From positions 806,001 through 870,000 of the forward strand of contig NZ_JAHWXP010000001.1 in NCBI RefSeq assembly GCF_019857185.1: a stretch of 64,000 bases of DNA. Reading direction: 5' to 3'. Position numbers and translations under genes: made by a program. This stretch comes from Alteriqipengyuania abyssalis. Its GTDB lineage: Bacteria; Pseudomonadota; Alphaproteobacteria; Sphingomonadales; Sphingomonadaceae. The notes beneath the pieces are model-generated. The model was given only the letters and a program-made list of their open reading frames with translations. It did not search any database and was not told where the DNA came from. How positions within the stretch are numbered: position 1 is the first letter of the stretch; each line of letters opens with the position of its first letter. Shown one piece after another: positions 5,166-48,758 of this stretch.

Positions 5166-7937
5166 TCAGCCCGTCGTCGTGTCTTCACGCGCGGGCAGGG
5201 TTCCTCCCTGCCTTGCCGGTGGCCCCGCTGCAAGGCGCGATACGGCTTCGTCCAGCGTGACGCGGTGAATCGGCGTGCCAGTGGGGAAGGCGCTGAGCAG
5301 ACGGCTGGGGAACGCGGGCGAGAGCACAACGAAGTGCCCGCTGTCTTCACGCGAGCGAATCAGCCGCCCGAAGGCCTGCGCCAGCCGCGCGCGGATGATC
5401 CGGTCGTCATAGGCACTGCCGCCGCCCGCCTCGTCCGCAAAGGCGGCGCGGCGGGCGCGGTGCAGAATGGTCGGGCGCGGCCAGGGCACGGCTTCCAGCA
5501 CCACGCTGCGCAAGCTGTCGCCCGGCACGTCGATCCCGTCGCGCAGGGCATCCGTGCCGAGCAGGCTGGCGCGCGGATCGTCGCCGAAAATATCGGTAAG
5601 CGTGCCGGTGTCGATCGGGTCGACGTGCTGCGCGTAAAGCGGCAGGTTGCCGCGCGCGAGCCGGTCCGCAATCCGCGCATGGACCGCGCGCAACCGCTTG
5701 ATCGCGGTAAACAGGCCCAGGGTTCCGCCGCCCGCCGCCTCGATCAGGCGGGCATAGCCTCCGGCAAGGCCGGCAATATCGCCGCGCTTGATGTCGGTGA
5801 CGATCAGCACCTCTGCCTTGCTCGCGTAATCGAACGGGCTTGGCTGGCTGGCCAGCTGCGGGGTCAGGCCGATATGCTCCGCCCCGCTCGATGCGATCGC
5901 GCGGGCCCAGTCGGGCTCACCCTCGGGGCCGCGGTCGGCCAGAGTCGCGCTGGTCAGCATCACGCCATGCGCTGGCTCGAGCACGATCTTGGCGAAGGGT
6001 TTCATCGGATCGAGCCAGCGGCGATGCAGGCCGATGTCGTATTCGCGCGCCTCGAACCGGTCGACCGCCAGCCAGTCGACGAAATCGGGGTCGGTCGGCC
6101 CTCCGATCCTGCCGAGCAAGGCCTCCCACGCGGCAATCAGATCGACCCGCCAGGCGAGCGAGTGCCGCGCGCCTTCGATCCGTGCCCGCCCCTGCCCGTC
6201 GAGCCAGTCGGGCGCGTCTTCCAGCACCGCCTCCAGCCGCTGGCCGAGTTTGAGCAGCGGTTTGCGGATATCGGCCAGCGCGCCCTGCGCCTCTTGCGCG
6301 GCATCGACCAGCGGCCCGGGAGGATCGGCGATTTCGGTCTCGATCCCGTAGCCCGCTTCGGAGCCGCCGCTCTCGTCGCGGGCGAACACGGTTGCGCGGA
6401 CCTGCGCGAGCAGTTCTTCGAGCGGGCCCGAGGGTGCCCCCTCGCCGATCCGCCCCAGCCAGCCGTCGGCGGGCAACGCCTGCGCCGCCTCGATCGCGTC
6501 TTCCACCGCCTCGCCGCCAGCATCGTCGTAGGATGCGATGTCGGCCAGCCGCGCGGCAAGCCCGCGTCTGCGCCCGCGCGTGTTGCGTTCCGGGCCGATG
6601 ATCCACCTGCGCAGCTCGATCGCTTCCTGCCCGCTCAGCGCGGCGGCGAAGGTGCTGTCGGCGGCATCGAACACGTGATGGCCTTCGTCGAAGATCATCC
6701 GCGTCGGCGGCTGGCCATGATGGCGCCCGCGCGCGGCATTGATCATCACCAGCGCGTGGTTGGCGATCACGAGGTCCGCCTGAGCACTCGTCCGCGCGGC
6801 GCGTTCGATGAAGCACTTTCGGTAATGCGGGCACCCGGCATAGACGCACTCGCCCCGCTGGTCGGTCAGCGCGGTGATCCCGCGCCGGGGGAACAGCGTG
6901 CCCAGCCAGCCGGGCAGATCGCCGCCGATCATGTCGCCATCGCGCGAATACTGCGCCCAGCGTGCGACCAGCTGCGCCAGCACCGCGCCGCGCCCGGCAA
7001 ACCCGCCCTGCATCGCGTCTTCGAGGTTGAGCAGGCACAGGTAATTCTCCCGCCCCTTGCGCACCACGACCGGCGCGCTGCCATCGGCGCGCTTTTCGGG
7101 CCACGCGCGGCGGCTCTCGCGCCGCAGCTGGCGCTGGAGGTTCTTGGTATAGGTGCTGACCCAGAGCGTGCCCTGCGACCGCTCCGCCCACACGCTTGCA
7201 GGCGAGAGATAGCCCAGAGTCTTGCCGATCCCGGTGCCCGCCTGTGCCAGCAGCAGATGCGGCTTGCCCCGCCCCTCACGGGGGGCGAAGATGCGGGCGA
7301 CATCGCCTGAATAGGCGCGCTGCCCCTCGCGCTTCTCCGCGCCTTCGCCGGTCAGCCGGGCAAGCTGAGCCTGCACCTCTTCCTCGCCGATCGAGACCTG
7401 CGCGGGTTGCGGACGCTCCGGCGCATCCTCCCATTCGGGCAGGGTCGCGAACAGCCAGCGCTCGGCCCATTCGGGTCGCTCCACGAACGAGGCGAGCACC
7501 TGCGCCCACGGCCAGCGCGCACGGGCGAGCGATTGCAGCGTGCTCCATGCGCCGTGTCGCTCCGCCCAGTCATCGCGCCCGCACACCGCCAGCATCGCGG
7601 CGAGCGCGCGCTGGAGGAAGGCAGGCGTTGCGCCCTCGTCCTCAGGCGGGTCGATCCCCAGCGTGGCAGCCAGCCCTTTGGGCGTGGGGACGCAGAACCG
7701 CGCGGGGTGGAGGAAGGCGTACAGCTCCAGCAGGTCGAGCCCGGAGAGATCGGGATAGCCCAGCCGCGCGGCCACCAGCGGCGCGTTGAGCAGCAGCACC
7801 GGCGTATCGGCGCAGGCATTGATCGCCTGCCCCTTGCCGATCTCTTGCGTGGTGCCATCGGGCGCGGCCAGCCACAGCCCGGCATGGCTGGCGTGGAGCG
7901 CGGGCAGAGCAGGCGGTTCGGGGGTCGGCGCGGCCAT
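5166..7937 (-). CDS. ATP-dependent DNA helicase, DinG/XPD family
   Basis: Superfamily 2 helicase of 923 residues. Walker A is GTGIGKT (about 234-240), the DEAH box is DEGH (about 417-420), and a helicase C-terminal domain ends with FGRLIRSREDSGHF (motif VI). Four Cys at about 301, 364, 369 and 375 sit between motifs I and II, the place of the 4Fe-4S cluster in XPD/DinG enzymes. The first 200 residues lack exonuclease motifs, as in the alphaproteobacterial subgroup. Likely unwinds 5'-tailed or R-loop DNA during repair or replication conflict. Confidence 0.9.
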   Translation of the reverse strand: MAAPTPEPPALPALHASHAGLWLAAPDGTTQEIGKGQAINACADTPVLLLNAPLVAARLGYPDLSGLDLLELYAFLHPARFCVPTPKGLAATLGIDPPEDEGATPAFLQRALAAMLAVCGRDDWAERHGAWSTLQSLARARWPWAQVLASFVERPEWAERWLFATLPEWEDAPERPQPAQVSIGEEEVQAQLARLTGEGAEKREGQRAYSGDVARIFAPREGRGKPHLLLAQAGTGIGKTLGYLSPASVWAERSQGTLWVSTYTKNLQRQLRRESRRAWPEKRADGSAPVVVRKGRENYLCLLNLEDAMQGGFAGRGAVLAQLVARWAQYSRDGDMIGGDLPGWLGTLFPRRGITALTDQRGECVYAGCPHYRKCFIERAARTSAQADLVIANHALVMINAARGRHHGQPPTRMIFDEGHHVFDAADSTFAAALSGQEAIELRRWIIGPERNTRGRRRGLAARLADIASYDDAGGEAVEDAIEAAQALPADGWLGRIGEGAPSGPLEELLAQVRATVFARDESGGSEAGYGIETEIADPPGPLVDAAQEAQGALADIRKPLLKLGQRLEAVLEDAPDWLDGQGRARIEGARHSLAWRVDLIAAWEALLGRIGGPTDPDFVDWLAVDRFEAREYDIGLHRRWLDPMKPFAKIVLEPAHGVMLTSATLADRGPEGEPDWARAIASSGAEHIGLTPQLASQPSPFDYASKAEVLIVTDIKRGDIAGLAGGYARLIEAAGGGTLGLFTAIKRLRAVHARIADRLARGNLPLYAQHVDPIDTGTLTDIFGDDPRASLLGTDALRDGIDVPGDSLRSVVLEAVPWPRPTILHRARRAAFADEAGGGSAYDDRIIRARLAQAFGRLIRSREDSGHFVVLSPAFPSRLLSAFPTGTPIHRVTLDEAVSRLAAGPPARQGGTLPAREDTTTG

Positions 7938-44548: not shown

Positions 44549-45769
44549 ATGGTACGCGCATTTCTCTACTTCATCGCGACAATGATCGTGCTCGTCATCA
44601 TCGGGCTGTTCGCGCTCAATTACTGGTCCGACAAGGCGACCGAGATCGCCTTCGTCCCCAACACCAAGTTCGTCGAGCAGGAAGCGCTGGCCGAGAACGC
44701 CTATGCCGACCCGGACATGTGGTATTCGCGCCCCGGCATCGGCACCAATGATCCCGCGCGCTACCAGCCCGCGATCGCCGAGACGCAGAACCCCCTGCCC
44801 CGCAGCGAGGACGAGCGCACGCTGGTGGAGCAAGCGAGCGAGGCCGGATCGCGCCGCGTCACCGCCGACGACGAACAGGGCGCGCCGCCCTTTGCGGTCT
44901 TCTTCGTCCACCCGACGAGCTACATCCCGACCAACCTCGACCGCGACATCCAGTGGAACGCGAAGCTGGGCAACAAGGAGGCGGAAGACCGCGCCACCCT
45001 GTTCCTGCGCGGGCTCGCCAGTCCGTTCAACCGCGCCGCGGAGATCTGGGCCCCCAAGTATCGCCAGGCGACCGTCGGTGCCTTCATCACCGACAAGCCC
45101 GAGGCGGAGCAGGCGATCGACGCGGCTTACCGCGATGTGGAACAGTCGTTCGACTATTTCCTCGAAAGCGTGGACAAGGATCGCCCGATCATCCTCGCCG
45201 GGCACAGCCAGGGATCGCTCCACCTGCTGCGGCTGCTGCGCGAGCGGATCAAGGGCCGCCCGGTGGAGAACCGCATCGCCGCGGTCTACGCGGTCGGCTG
45301 GCCGATCTCTATCGATCACGACCTGCCCGTGCTGCCGCTGCCCGCGTGCGAGCGCGCCAACGAGGCAGGCTGCATCCTCAGCTGGGTGAGCTTCGCCGAT
45401 GATGGCGACCCGACCCAGCTCCTCAGCCGCTACCGGGCGAGCCCCGGCTTCGATGGGGAGCCGCGCGGCAACGGGGCGATCCTGTGCGTCAACCCGATCA
45501 CCGGTTTCGCGAACAGCGCCGCCCCGGCGGACGACAACAAGGGCACGCTGGTGCCGAGTGAGGATCTTACCTCCGGCGAACTGGTCGCCGGTGCGGTCGG
45601 CGCGCGGTGCGACGAGCAGGGCATCCTGCGGATCGGCGACCCGCCCGAAATGGGCTCCGCCGTGCTGCCCGGCAGGAACTACCACGTCTACGACATCCCG
45701 CTGTTCTGGCGGAACCTGCAGGACGACGTGGTGACGCGCGTGCGCGAATGGACAGCCGCGAACTCGTAG
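44549..45769 (+). CDS. DUF3089 alpha/beta-hydrolase-fold protein, membrane anchored
   Basis: A 406-residue protein with one N-terminal membrane helix (about 3-24) and a DUF3089 domain. The nucleophile elbow is LAGHSQGSLHLLRLL; the early block FAVFFVHPTSYIPT is the oxyanion strand. Probably a periplasmic-facing esterase or thioesterase. AGGGGG precedes the ATG. The last 22 bases overlap ruvX. Confidence 0.85.
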   Translation: MVRAFLYFIATMIVLVIIGLFALNYWSDKATEIAFVPNTKFVEQEALAENAYADPDMWYSRPGIGTNDPARYQPAIAETQNPLPRSEDERTLVEQASEAGSRRVTADDEQGAPPFAVFFVHPTSYIPTNLDRDIQWNAKLGNKEAEDRATLFLRGLASPFNRAAEIWAPKYRQATVGAFITDKPEAEQAIDAAYRDVEQSFDYFLESVDKDRPIILAGHSQGSLHLLRLLRERIKGRPVENRIAAVYAVGWPISIDHDLPVLPLPACERANEAGCILSWVSFADDGDPTQLLSRYRASPGFDGEPRGNGAILCVNPITGFANSAAPADDNKGTLVPSEDLTSGELVAGAVGARCDEQGILRIGDPPEMGSAVLPGRNYHVYDIPLFWRNLQDDVVTRVREWTAANS

Positions 45770-46236
45770 GTGAGAGTGCCGCAGGTCTGGCCGAGACGCT
45801 GCCCGACGGGGGCGCGCTGATCGGGCTGGACCTGGGCACCAAGACCATCGGCATCGCGGTGTGCGATGCGGGCTGGCGCTTTGCCTCCGCACTCAAGACA
45901 TTGTCGCGTGGCAAGTTCGGTCGCGATCGCGACGAGCTGCGCAAGCTCATCGAGGCGCGTAGCATTCGCGGGATCGTGATCGGCCTGCCGCGCAACATGG
46001 ACGGCAGCGAAGGCCCGCGCGCGCAGGCGAGCCGCGCCTATGCGCGCAACCTTGCCGAAGCCTTCGGCCTGCCGGTGCTGCTGTGGGACGAGCGCTGGTC
46101 GACCAAAAGCGCCGAGGACGCGATGATCGGGCTCGATGTCAGTCGCCGCAAGCGGGCCGAGCGGATCGATGCCGAGGCCGCGACGATCATTTTGCAAGCG
46201 GCGATCGATGCGGCGACGGGTTCGCCGTTACTCTGA
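45748..46236 (+). CDS. ruvX: Holliday junction resolvase-like protein RuvX (YqgF)
   Basis: A 162-residue RNase H-fold protein. The first catalytic Asp is in GLDLGTKTIGIAV, and VIGLPRNMDGSEGPRAQ and LWDERWSTKSAEDAM are signature blocks, with a C-terminal catalytic Asp in IDAEAATIILQ. Implicated in pre-16S rRNA 5' maturation. Start ATG lies within the end of the DUF3089 gene. Converges on the cassette at 46228. Confidence 0.93.
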   Translation: MDSRELVGESAAGLAETLPDGGALIGLDLGTKTIGIAVCDAGWRFASALKTLSRGKFGRDRDELRKLIEARSIRGIVIGLPRNMDGSEGPRAQASRAYARNLAEAFGLPVLLWDERWSTKSAEDAMIGLDVSRRKRAERIDAEAATIILQAAIDAATGSPLL

Positions 46237-47013
46237 CCGGATCATTCCGCTCGCCACCCGTCGCATCGCAGCACTGGGGTGATGTGTGGCGAAATGCTCC
46301 GCACAATGTCTCGCATCCTCCCCGCCCAGCGCCACACCCAGCCTTAGCAAGACTTCGTTCGCGCTCGCATTGAGCACACCCGCGATCCGGCCGGCTTCGG
46401 TGTCGAAACGGTACTGATCAAACCAGCCTTGCGCGGGGTTGGCGGCGCAGATGTTGAGCGAAACGGACAGGCTCTCGGGCGGATGCTGGCAATGGACGTC
46501 GCGATGCGCGCGATAGTGCAGCACGCGCCCCTCCCTCAGCCGCGATCGCTCGACGAACCGCAGATCGACATGCTCTCCGACCTCTCCCGAGACGCTGGCA
46601 TAATCGTATTCCCAGTAGTCGCTGACATAGCCCGGGCCGAAATAGCCGACCGTCAGGAAGTCGAAATTGTGATCATGCGGCAGTCCGTAGACGAAGCTTG
46701 CCGCGCCGCTCGCCTGAAAGGCCGGATCTCCCCGCGCGGGCCAGATATTGGCGCGCAGGAAATAACCCTTGCGCGGCCCCGCCAGCATGATCGCCTGCGG
46801 GCCGTAACCGCTTGCCTGATCCTCGGCACCGGCCAGGAGATCGATCATCAGATCGCCGAGGAAGCCGCGATTGGCTGCCAGCCCGGCGAGCAGCGATGCC
46901 GCGTGCTGTAACGAACGCTCGTCCGCTGGTTCGAAGCCGTGCTCGTCCAGCTGCGCGATGCATTCTGCAAGTGTGAGCGGGGTGCAAGACGATGGCGTCA
47001 GCTCGCGAGGCAT
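46228..47013 (-). CDS. Unknown protein with cupin-like core, cassette gene 3
   Basis: A 261-residue protein that I do not recognise as a named family. A helical N-terminus is followed by a beta-rich core with closely spaced possible metal ligands (LPHDHNFDFLTVG, SDYWEYDYASVSGE, LHYRAHRDVHCQHPPESL), compatible with an iron or other metal cupin, and a helical C-terminus after DTEAGRIAGVLN. Related sphingomonad proteins are, as I recall, sometimes misnamed transposase; nothing here supports that. Start MPRELTP overlaps the preceding gene by 16 bases. Confidence 0.72.
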   Translation of the reverse strand: MPRELTPSSCTPLTLAECIAQLDEHGFEPADERSLQHAASLLAGLAANRGFLGDLMIDLLAGAEDQASGYGPQAIMLAGPRKGYFLRANIWPARGDPAFQASGAASFVYGLPHDHNFDFLTVGYFGPGYVSDYWEYDYASVSGEVGEHVDLRFVERSRLREGRVLHYRAHRDVHCQHPPESLSVSLNICAANPAQGWFDQYRFDTEAGRIAGVLNASANEVLLRLGVALGGEDARHCAEHFATHHPSAAMRRVASGMIRSE

Positions 47014-47969
47014 TGGCTTTCCCGGACCTTGGCAAGCTGTGGATAAGTTGTGCATAGCCTGTGGCGAAGTGCAGTTGCCTCGCGTGCCAGCGGATCACTG
47101 TCGCGCTCCGCAATCGCGCACAAACTCGCGAATCCACTGGCCGTGTCGAGCGCCAGCGCGTGACGCAGTGCCTGCCACCGGGCCCCCTCCCCCGCTTGTC
47201 CACAGCCCCCCTCCCCGCAGGCATAGCCCGCGAGAGCGGGTGCAGCGTCGGTTCGGCCCATCGCACCGAGCAATGCAGCAGCCAGTTCCGCGCGCCCGTC
47301 TGCAGGGCTCGGGGAGGCCCGGTGGACGATCCGCCCGGTTTCCAGCTCCACCTCTAGGGTCGGACGCGGATGGGCGGGCTCGCGTGCGACCCGCAGCAGC
47401 ACCAGGGGCGCATCCAGAGCGGCAATGGCTCGGGAATTATCGGCATCGGCGGTGAGAACCGTGCCGGGGGCAAGGCGAACTTCTTGGGCCACTGGCGGCG
47501 CACCGTCGCGCCGTGTGTAACGTACCGCCGCCGCCTGCCCCGTCAGCACCACTTCCCGGCGATCGCAATCCGAAAAGGCGATAGTGCGCGGCGCTCTGGC
47601 TGTATCCGGCTCGACCAGCACAAGCGCCAGCGTCACCGGCCCGCCGCGGTGAATGTGGACGATGCCCTGCCCGCCGGCGTAGCTGTGCCGAAAGGGCAAT
47701 TGCGCCAGTGGCTGGTCACGCCACGCAGCCAGCATGGCGGCGATGAACCGTGCAACGAACTCCTGCGCGCCGTCTTCATCGATAAGGGGTAGCAATGCGC
47801 CGCAGCGCGCGAAATCACCGGTGTTTCGCAGGGTCCGGCAATCGGCCAGAACTCGCGCGACCTGTGGCCGCCCCTGCCACTCGGCCCGCGCGGCCAGCAC
47901 GCGATCCTGCGCCGCGGCCTGCGCGCGGCTATCGCCCGCAAATTCTCGCAGCGCAGCATCGACATGCAT
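46998..47969 (-). CDS. Unknown protein with beta-core and helical C-terminus, cassette gene 2
   Basis: A 323-residue protein of unknown family. N-terminal helices are followed by a beta-rich core (HSYAGGQGIVHIHRGGPVTLAL to NSRAIAALDAPLVLLRVA) and a HEAT-like helical tail after ELETGRIVHRAS. The (D/E)xxxGRI junction and helix order mirror the next gene, suggesting distant paralogy. It starts 15 bases after the 56-residue gene, with GAGGCGAG overlapping that stop, and overlaps the following gene. The three genes form one tight unit. Confidence 0.72.
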   Translation of the reverse strand: MHVDAALREFAGDSRAQAAAQDRVLAARAEWQGRPQVARVLADCRTLRNTGDFARCGALLPLIDEDGAQEFVARFIAAMLAAWRDQPLAQLPFRHSYAGGQGIVHIHRGGPVTLALVLVEPDTARAPRTIAFSDCDRREVVLTGQAAAVRYTRRDGAPPVAQEVRLAPGTVLTADADNSRAIAALDAPLVLLRVAREPAHPRPTLEVELETGRIVHRASPSPADGRAELAAALLGAMGRTDAAPALAGYACGEGGCGQAGEGARWQALRHALALDTASGFASLCAIAERDSDPLAREATALRHRLCTTYPQLAKVRESQCLAS

Positions 47970-47984
47970 GGTCGGCGACTCGCC

Positions 47985-48155
47985 TCAGAATAAGCCGGTG
48001 GGCACTTCGGGCGGGAAGGTTTCGTAGAGGTAGACCATCAGGATCACGACCCGGTCGTCGGTCGTCGCGCTGGCCAGATCGGACAGGCTCCCGATCAGAC
48101 CAGGCGCGTCGATCAGGCCCGGCAGGCTGTCGAGCGAAAGCTTGGGCAAGTTCAT
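47985..48155 (-). CDS. 56-residue peptide gene heading the cassette
   Basis: Too short for most gene callers, but well supported: ATG preceded by AGGGAG 9 bases upstream, and its stop adjoins the ribosome site of the next gene. The peptide begins MNLPKLSLDSLPGLIDAPGL, continues with a Ser/Asp/Leu stretch, then a strongly hydrophobic VVILMVYLYE and ends ETFPPEVPTGLF. It has no Cys and no signal peptide. It could be a precursor or partner peptide for the two downstream proteins. No family recognised. Confidence 0.68.
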   Translation of the reverse strand: MNLPKLSLDSLPGLIDAPGLIGSLSDLASATTDDRVVILMVYLYETFPPEVPTGLF

Positions 48156-48278
48156 CGATGTTGCTCCCTTGAATGGCGCGCGGCTCCCCTTCCGCGCAGC
48201 GCCATTGATCCCGCGAAGCCCCGTCCCAAGCGAATTAAAATATTGTCATCGCCGCCATCTCCCGACAGATGAACGGGC

Positions 48279-48758
48279 ATGGAGAAAGAGGCCCCACACC
48301 GCGATCCGGCGAACGTCTTCGACCCGGAGAAAGCTGCGCCATTCCTGTTTGCGGGCGGGCATCCGGGCTGGCTGGGGCTGACCTATCTCGGTCACGGAGA
48401 GGACTGGACCGAAATCAGGCTGCCCTGGCGCGAGGAGCTGATGGGCGACGATGTGCGTCGCGTGATCGCCTCAGGCCCGATCTTCTCGATGCTCGACATG
48501 GGTGGCGGCATTGCGATCTGGACCCGTGCACGGCGCTTCGTGCCGATCGCCACGCTCGACATGCGGGTCGACTACCAGCGCCCGGCAGGCGAGCGCGCGG
48601 ATGTGATTGCGCGGTGCGAATGCTACCGCACAACGCGCTCTGCCGCCTTCGTGCGCGGGATCGCGCATGACGGCGATCCTGACGATCCGGTGGCGACGAT
48701 GGCGGCGGTCTACATGACCATCGGCGATTTCAATCCGGCGGGGGCGAAGAATGACTGA
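48279..48758 (+). CDS. PaaI-like thioesterase (hotdog fold), first of pair
   Basis: A 159-residue hotdog-fold protein of the PaaI/YigI group. The helix with the likely catalytic acid is ASGPIFSMLDMGGGIAIW; the strand LDMRVDYQRPAG is typical. It would cleave an acyl-CoA thioester. The next gene, also a hotdog protein, overlaps it by 8 bases, so they may form a heteromer. It is divergent from the peptide cassette over 123 AT-rich bases. Confidence 0.85.
   Translation: MEKEAPHRDPANVFDPEKAAPFLFAGGHPGWLGLTYLGHGEDWTEIRLPWREELMGDDVRRVIASGPIFSMLDMGGGIAIWTRARRFVPIATLDMRVDYQRPAGERADVIARCECYRTTRSAAFVRGIAHDGDPDDPVATMAAVYMTIGDFNPAGAKND

Follow-up and report, generated by a model that had tools for sequence, protein, structure and literature searches.

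The stretch of DNA analysed here (the window, 64,000 nucleotides) covers positions 806,001 to 870,000 of contig NZ_JAHWXP010000001.1 of Alteriqipengyuania abyssalis (assembly GCF_019857185.1). Between ruvX and a thioesterase gene it carries a cassette of three genes on the reverse strand, encoding a 56-residue peptide and two larger proteins, referred to below as gene 2 and gene 3. We consider it somewhat probable that the cassette is an undescribed system for a ribosomally synthesised and post-translationally modified peptide (RiPP), in which gene 3 would use Fe(II) and O2 to oxidise the core of the peptide and gene 2 would act as peptide-binding partner. The annotated parts, in window positions, are as follows.

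48164..48170, - strand: ribosome-binding site AAGGGAG of the peptide gene, 8 nt 5' of the ATG (sequence; 20 nt upstream of relatives)
47985..48155, - strand: peptide gene, 56 aa, precursor-like, with a leader-like N-terminal segment of the type LPxIxLxxLPxLxxxxGxxGS, a variable linker, and DD plus an I/V-rich tail (sequence, relatives)
47979..47986, - strand: GAGGCGAG, ribosome-binding site for gene 2 that lies partly over the peptide stop TGA (sequence)
46998..47969, - strand: gene 2, 323 aa, a cupin without conserved metal ligands plus a HEAT-like helical tail; predicted peptide-binding partner
46228..47013, - strand: gene 3, 261 aa, a 3-His cupin of thiol-dioxygenase fold plus a short helical tail; predicted peptide oxidase
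46669..46677, - strand: codons of H113-D114-H115 of gene 3, which include the first two predicted metal ligands, H113 and H115 (78/78)
46492..46494, - strand: codon of H174 of gene 3, the third predicted metal ligand (78/78)
45751..46236, + strand: ruvX; conserved neighbour beyond gene 3, whose 3' end it overlaps (Pfam RuvX, synteny)
48279..48758, + strand: 4HBT (PaaI-like) thioesterase gene; conserved neighbour beyond the peptide gene (Pfam 4HBT, synteny)

The genes follow each other in the order peptide, gene 2, gene 3. The original prediction had given the positions and sizes correctly, and its description of a strong ribosome site before the peptide, a gene 2 site lying over the peptide stop and an overlap of genes 2 and 3 (16 nt) also held. 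In the relatives the distance from the peptide stop to the gene 2 start had a median of 14 nt (first-start rule), and genes 2 and 3 overlapped in 71 of 79 loci. A promoter scan of the region found no promoter-like site, a terminator scan gave one terminator-like site where 1.5 were expected by chance, and the repeats in the region were short and unremarkable. Gene 3 is present as a single copy in the window genome.

Relatives of gene 3 were obtained by a scan of public genome contigs, and the best 80 of the 111 found were taken as the 80-locus set; alignments A1, A2 and A3 used 77, 76 and 77 of these loci after length and position filters, and a match in G856 (internal stop, short contig) was left aside. 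In a translated search (tblastn, no low-complexity filter), 76 of the 80 loci had the peptide upstream of gene 3 at E ≤ 1e-3, and 78 had it there at E ≤ 10. In a set of 105 loci, which includes some genomes twice, the corresponding counts were 94 and 99, the peptide homologue lying 0.7-1.7 kb from gene 3 on its upstream side. Elsewhere in the same loci no peptide match was found at E ≤ 1, and ten loci had one at E ≤ 10; this near-absence indicates that the association of peptide and gene 3 exceeds chance. The expected conserved peptide beside the homologues of genes 2 and 3 was therefore found. It matched weakly in L101 and L103, and was not found in L045, where gene 2 is chimeric, or in L062, where the contig begins inside gene 2. 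Gene 2 was present in 79 of the 80 loci, and in L097, where tblastn missed it, an open reading frame (ORF) is present; partial or chimeric copies occur in L031, L045, L062 and L096.

After removal of the signal of ruvX and DUF3089, the residual distances remained correlated between gene 2 and gene 3 (0.73), gene 2 and the peptide (0.65) and gene 3 and the peptide (0.52; n=62, p 0.001 each). In 25 hand-chosen pairs the peptide had a mean proportion of nonsynonymous differences (pN) of 0.106 and a mean synonymous proportion (pS) of 0.38, which shows purifying selection. Two disrupted loci were seen. In a congener (L003, 1-1516) unrelated ORFs have replaced the peptide together with some two thirds of gene 2, of which a 105-aa ORF keeps the tail, and the chimeric gene 2 of L045 (5075-6013) joins a foreign N-terminal part to the same tail region as that remnant.

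Within the close family the N-terminal part of the peptide is conserved as far as FGS, with G22 in 78 of 78 sequences and S, A or T at position 23 in 77. We take this part to be comparable to double-glycine leaders, and G22-S/A/T23 presumably resembles the end of such a leader. A linker of 5-18 residues follows, and then a semi-conserved tail of DD with a hydrophobic run. Cys occurs in just 6 of the 78 peptides. Because most of them are without Cys, a thiol oxidation of the peptide like that of cysteine dioxygenase (CDO) is disfavoured, and judging from these sequences a change made to the peptide is probably of another kind. Position 44 is Y in 74, H in 3 and W in 1 of the 78. PqqA and the mycofactocin precursor are peptide precursors of cofactors; a comparable role was rejected here, as Y44 and D34 vary in a few of the 78 rows and are not kept in divergent peptides, which leaves no universal reactive residue.

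The AlphaFold model of gene 3 has a helical N-terminus, a cupin core and a helical tail, with a fold like that of thiol (cysteine) dioxygenase. Structure and profile comparison placed its HxH...H pattern in register with the thiol dioxygenases, and the three predicted metal-ligand His are kept in all 78 aligned sequences. The suggestion of metal binding made in the original prediction could thus be retained for gene 3, as a predicted 3-His pattern of thiol-dioxygenase type, and was dropped for gene 2, whose alignment contains no invariant His. CDO_I (PF05995) was not among the 11 Pfam families matched by any of the 78 members at E ≤ 1. The cores of genes 2 and 3 matched no curated family scanned and HEAT_2 matched in the tails only, in agreement with the earlier statement that both proteins are unrecognised. 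In Citromicrobium-type loci gene 3 is 260-265 aa long (window 46228-46240), about 35-40 residues short of the 80-locus median of 299.5 aa; this early stop suggests that the helical tail was shortened in that lineage.

Since the fold of gene 3 is that of the small-thiol dioxygenases, gene 3 might instead be a small-molecule (thiol or related) dioxygenase, with gene 2 as a structural subunit and the peptide as an unmodified regulatory or stabilising subunit of a housekeeping complex. The lack of a universal reactive peptide residue, with even Y44 varying, is consistent with such a complex, which we nevertheless regard as rather unlikely, as the Tyr and Arg that act on small thiols in CDO are not conserved. 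In CDO the Arg binds the carboxylate. The CDO_I reference consisted of 5 bacterial rows of 6 matches, one of them below the family cut-off (L157 was left out, having no suitable ORF). The Tyr closing the SxHxY stretch was present in 5 of 5 of these rows and an Arg two residues past the conserved Tyr in 4 of 5; at the latter position gene 3 (position 72, two past Y70) has P in 65, A in 12 and G in 1 of 78. R87, kept in 77 of 78 rows of A1 and in 14 of 14 of A4, was considered as the counterpart of CDO Arg60 on its 26-residue spacing to HxH. It was dropped, as the profile alignment puts it four residues before a conserved Trp, on another strand.

The AlphaFold model of gene 2 repeats the architecture of gene 3, with a helical N-terminus, a cupin core and a HEAT-like helical tail, as had been predicted from the sequence for both proteins. 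Profiles built from close rows (A1 vs A2) gave nothing useful (prob 0.5, E 0.13). With diverse rows, 216 columns of the two profiles were aligned (prob 91, E 1.1e-6), with the (D/E)xxxGRI junctions in register. The modelled common fold and this alignment support the proposal that gene 2 is a distant paralog of gene 3, in which the metal site is not retained. Family scans recognised no regulator or DNA-binding domain in the cassette proteins, and no RiPP recognition element (RRE) was recognised by Pfam and NCBIfam scans, which are not built to detect RREs.

Of 98 genomes, 24 had a relative of gene 3, the window genome among them; all 24 belong to the same family, and they include 9 of the 10 from its genus. 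The closest named relative, from Citromicrobium bathyomarinum (L026), is 93% identical, and the record titles of the 80 loci are mostly Erythrobacter-, Novosphingobium- and related Sphingomonadales. A class-level profile search was positive in 3 of 289 genomes, all from the window's family and itself counted (two profiles, same result), and a phylum-level search in 10 of 299, one of which (G493) belongs to another class. In the class of G493 2 of 185 genomes were positive and in its order 5 of 247, G493 counted in both. Among 72,556 plasmid records two contain cassette relatives (Alteromonas stellipolaris and Vibrio sp. ED002), and in both annotated records genes 2 and 3 are named 'hypothetical protein'.

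The flanks of the 80 loci contain RuvX in 69, the first thioesterase in 45 and AI2E, a permease-like neighbour, in 52, with several loci cut by contig ends; the family scan of the flanks covered RuvX and 4HBT only, and the names DUF3089, LepB, AI2E, PBP, CobS and MpaB were given by eye. Distances of ruvX and gene 3 were correlated (Mantel 0.72, n=64), which indicates an old and largely vertically inherited locus. From 12 cassette-less genomes six were fetched. In four of these ruvX directly adjoins the thioesterase gene, showing that the cassette is dispensable; in the remaining two no thioesterase was detected next to ruvX. In the window lineage the cassette has long occupied the chromosomal site between ruvX and the thioesterase gene without being indispensable. 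An old, vertical chromosomal position would suit the housekeeping dioxygenase complex described above, but the clean absence from four of six genomes speaks against an essential subunit.

Fourteen distant cassettes were compared: L116-L122 from the window's family, L115, L127 and L134-L136 from another class of the phylum, and L125 and L126 on plasmids. Twelve of the 14 have a peptide of 36-52 aa 5' of gene 2. The most hydrophobic 10-residue stretch lies in the C-terminal half in all 12 of these peptides, which were hand-picked by eye, as compared to 47% of 581 control ORFs. Under a mechanical rule (nearest ATG ORF of 30-70 aa with its stop between 350 nt upstream of gene 2 and 25 nt inside it), the nearest ORF was such a peptide in 11 of the 14 loci, and in L116 it was the second ORF. 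Genome G035 has two cassettes; the second (L119, C1:719000-731900) has a gene 3 that is 37% identical to that of the window, with its own 39-aa peptide and gene 2. On the Alteromonas plasmid (L125, 6624-6961) gene 2 is preceded by two different short peptides in a row, an arrangement like that of two-peptide systems.

ABC export-type genes adjoin at least three of the 14 distant cassettes (L116, L125 and L136). For nine of the 14 (L115, L116, L119, L125, L126, L127, L134, L135 and L136) the reading of the flanks extended past about 2 kb, so exporters near the other five may be missed. In L116 the neighbour is a divergent C39-peptidase ABC exporter (best model TIGR03796, 1.5e-146, below cut-off), accompanied by HlyD. 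In L125, Yip1, HlyD and a MacB-type ABC pair lie upstream and an ABC-2 pair downstream; NF038007 (9.9e-68, below cut-off) is one of several MacB/LolD-type models that its ATPase matches. Next to the L136 cassette are genes for an ABC ATPase and for a membrane-like protein with no family match; L134 has a Yip1 protein downstream, and L115 and L135 have RND-pump-like ORFs upstream (by eye). A C39 peptidase match was found in 8 of 13 genomes tested, adjoining the cassette only in G584. That three distant cassettes adjoin export-type ABC genes, which in one case include a C39 leader peptidase, argues against the small-molecule dioxygenase and strengthens the earlier suggestion of a putative peptide-modification or peptide-partner system.

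These exporters (C39/HlyD and MacB-type) would also be expected if the peptide acted, without modification, as a hydrophobic bacteriocin or toxin, with carrier, antitoxin or immunity proteins encoded by genes 2 and 3. The shortness of the peptides and their hydrophobic tails, the presence/absence polymorphism and the plasmid copies point the same way. Still, an intact and highly conserved metal-ligand pattern in gene 3 is unexpected for an immunity protein, and the long vertical retention and the lack of a PADLOC match disagree with this explanation, which we judge to be improbable.

Two distant loci have unusual surroundings. In L126 (2816-8465, Vibrio sp. ED002 plasmid) short relatives of genes 2 and 3 have a Tn3-type transposase/recombinase region on one side and a restriction-modification system on the other. 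In L127 (4573-7708, G826) a Cupin_8 (JmjC-like) protein is encoded upstream and adjoins genes 2 and 3, and a leader-like peptide ORF is present at 5650-5802 on the opposite strand.

A phage or defence origin was rejected. No phage record was found with the L125 gene 3 as query, none of 5 proteins matched PADLOC-DB at E ≤ 1, and PHROGs gave weak matches only (best 0.064). An IMG/VR contig (L133, 3-2600) carries a gene 3 relative at its edge, beside tyrosine-integrase-like and phage-type ORFs (by eye); it is possibly host DNA beside a prophage.

In the RiPP-type system that we favour, the peptide would be the precursor, with a recognition or leader segment formed by the conserved N-terminal stretch as far as the invariant Gly22 and Ser/Ala/Thr23, and a core running from the variable linker through the I/V-rich tail. 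Gene 2, as the paralog without a metal site, would bind the peptide, and gene 3, built on the thiol-dioxygenase scaffold as a mononuclear Fe(II) 3-His enzyme, would oxidise the hydrophobic core with O2. The leader might then be removed and the product exported.

Several observations weigh against this scheme. Inheritance at a single site is unlike that of most bacteriocin loci, and in L003 gene 3 is still open despite the loss of the peptide and most of gene 2. On the same strand the mechanical rule found no such peptide in L126 (only other ORFs) or L127 (no ORF), and the share of distant cassettes with adjoining export-type genes is small. The similarity of gene 3 to the CDO profile is weak (E 0.0097, prob 4), and the CDO Tyr is absent, position 189 being M in 54, V in 9, L in 8, C in 5 and I in 2 of 78. 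None of the five genomes tested in the genus (the window genome and four congeners) had a C39 peptidase match. Beside the window cassette no dedicated exporter was recognised by eye; the recognised flanks are ruvX, thioesterases and other chromosomal genes.

The last two findings are also what the small-molecule dioxygenase would predict. As no dedicated exporter was recognised nearby, the product may stay in the cell in the window lineage. This, with the vertical conservation, would agree with a peptide-sensing regulatory module, in which a cytoplasmic peptide oxidised by gene 3 reports O2 or iron status and gene 2 reads it out. ADO and PCO, two O2 sensors that oxidise proteins, are built on the thiol-dioxygenase scaffold. 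Against the module stand the exporters beside some distant relatives and the scans of the cassette proteins, in which neither a regulator nor a DNA-binding domain was recognised; we regard such a module as very improbable.

No description of this operon was found in the literature as searched by title and start of abstract, a scope that leaves out most subscription papers. Within it, no work was found joining RiPPs with cupins and cysteine dioxygenase, or cysteine dioxygenase with a precursor or leader peptide; thiol dioxygenase with ribosomally synthesized peptide matched work on a sulfonamide antibiotic. The scans gave no DUF692 and no CDO_I Pfam match that would place the cassette in a described RiPP class, radical SAM and other maturase families not having been sought systematically. 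It is quite possible, and we propose this tentatively, that the cassette represents a new RiPP class, with a 3-His maturase of thiol-dioxygenase fold acting on a mostly Cys-free hydrophobic core and a catalytically dead HEAT-cupin paralog as peptide receptor. Erythrobacter-type Sphingomonadales would have kept it on the chromosome as a dispensable locus, and in some other bacteria it would be accompanied by exporters. The thiol-dioxygenase scaffold would then serve as a RiPP maturase on peptides mostly without Cys, and the pair of enzyme and dead paralog would be an alternative to leader recognition of the RRE type. Since genes 2 and 3 are named 'hypothetical protein' in both annotated plasmid records and their cores matched no curated family scanned, genome mining that relies on known enzyme families is expected to miss them. 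The divergent peptides are ready substrates for tests.

Compared with the thiol dioxygenases (CDO_I; mercaptosuccinate, 3-mercaptopropionate, ADO/PCO), gene 3 shares the cupin fold, the N-terminal helices and HxH...H. It differs in lacking a CDO_I match, in having M, V, L, C or I in place of the Tyr and no Arg at Tyr+2, and in its extra helical insertion before HxH, HEAT-like helical tail, partner paralog and peptide gene. With the double-glycine leader bacteriocins and microcins that use C39 exporters the cassette has in common that the L116 peptide adjoins a C39-peptidase ABC exporter and HlyD. It differs from them in its two dedicated cupin proteins, its vertical locus and the lack of a C39 peptidase match in the window genome. 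The likeness to darobactin-type export (DarD) is limited to the ATPase of the L125 exporter (NF038007), whereas no radical SAM family was found among the eight L125 proteins scanned. By analogy, the cassette resembles the MNIO (DUF692) RiPP systems, as described in PMC12257519, in combining a small precursor, an iron oxidase and a partner protein in one operon, the iron and O2-type chemistry being predicted for the cassette. According to that paper, the MNIO is a TIM-barrel, multi-iron enzyme whose partner PbsD carries an RRE, and PbsQ, the cupin of the same cluster, is JmjC-related and not thiol-dioxygenase-like. In the cassette, Pfam scans gave no match to the DUF692 TIM-barrel and the predicted fold of gene 3 is a cupin; unlike in the MNIO systems, both of its proteins are predicted cupins.
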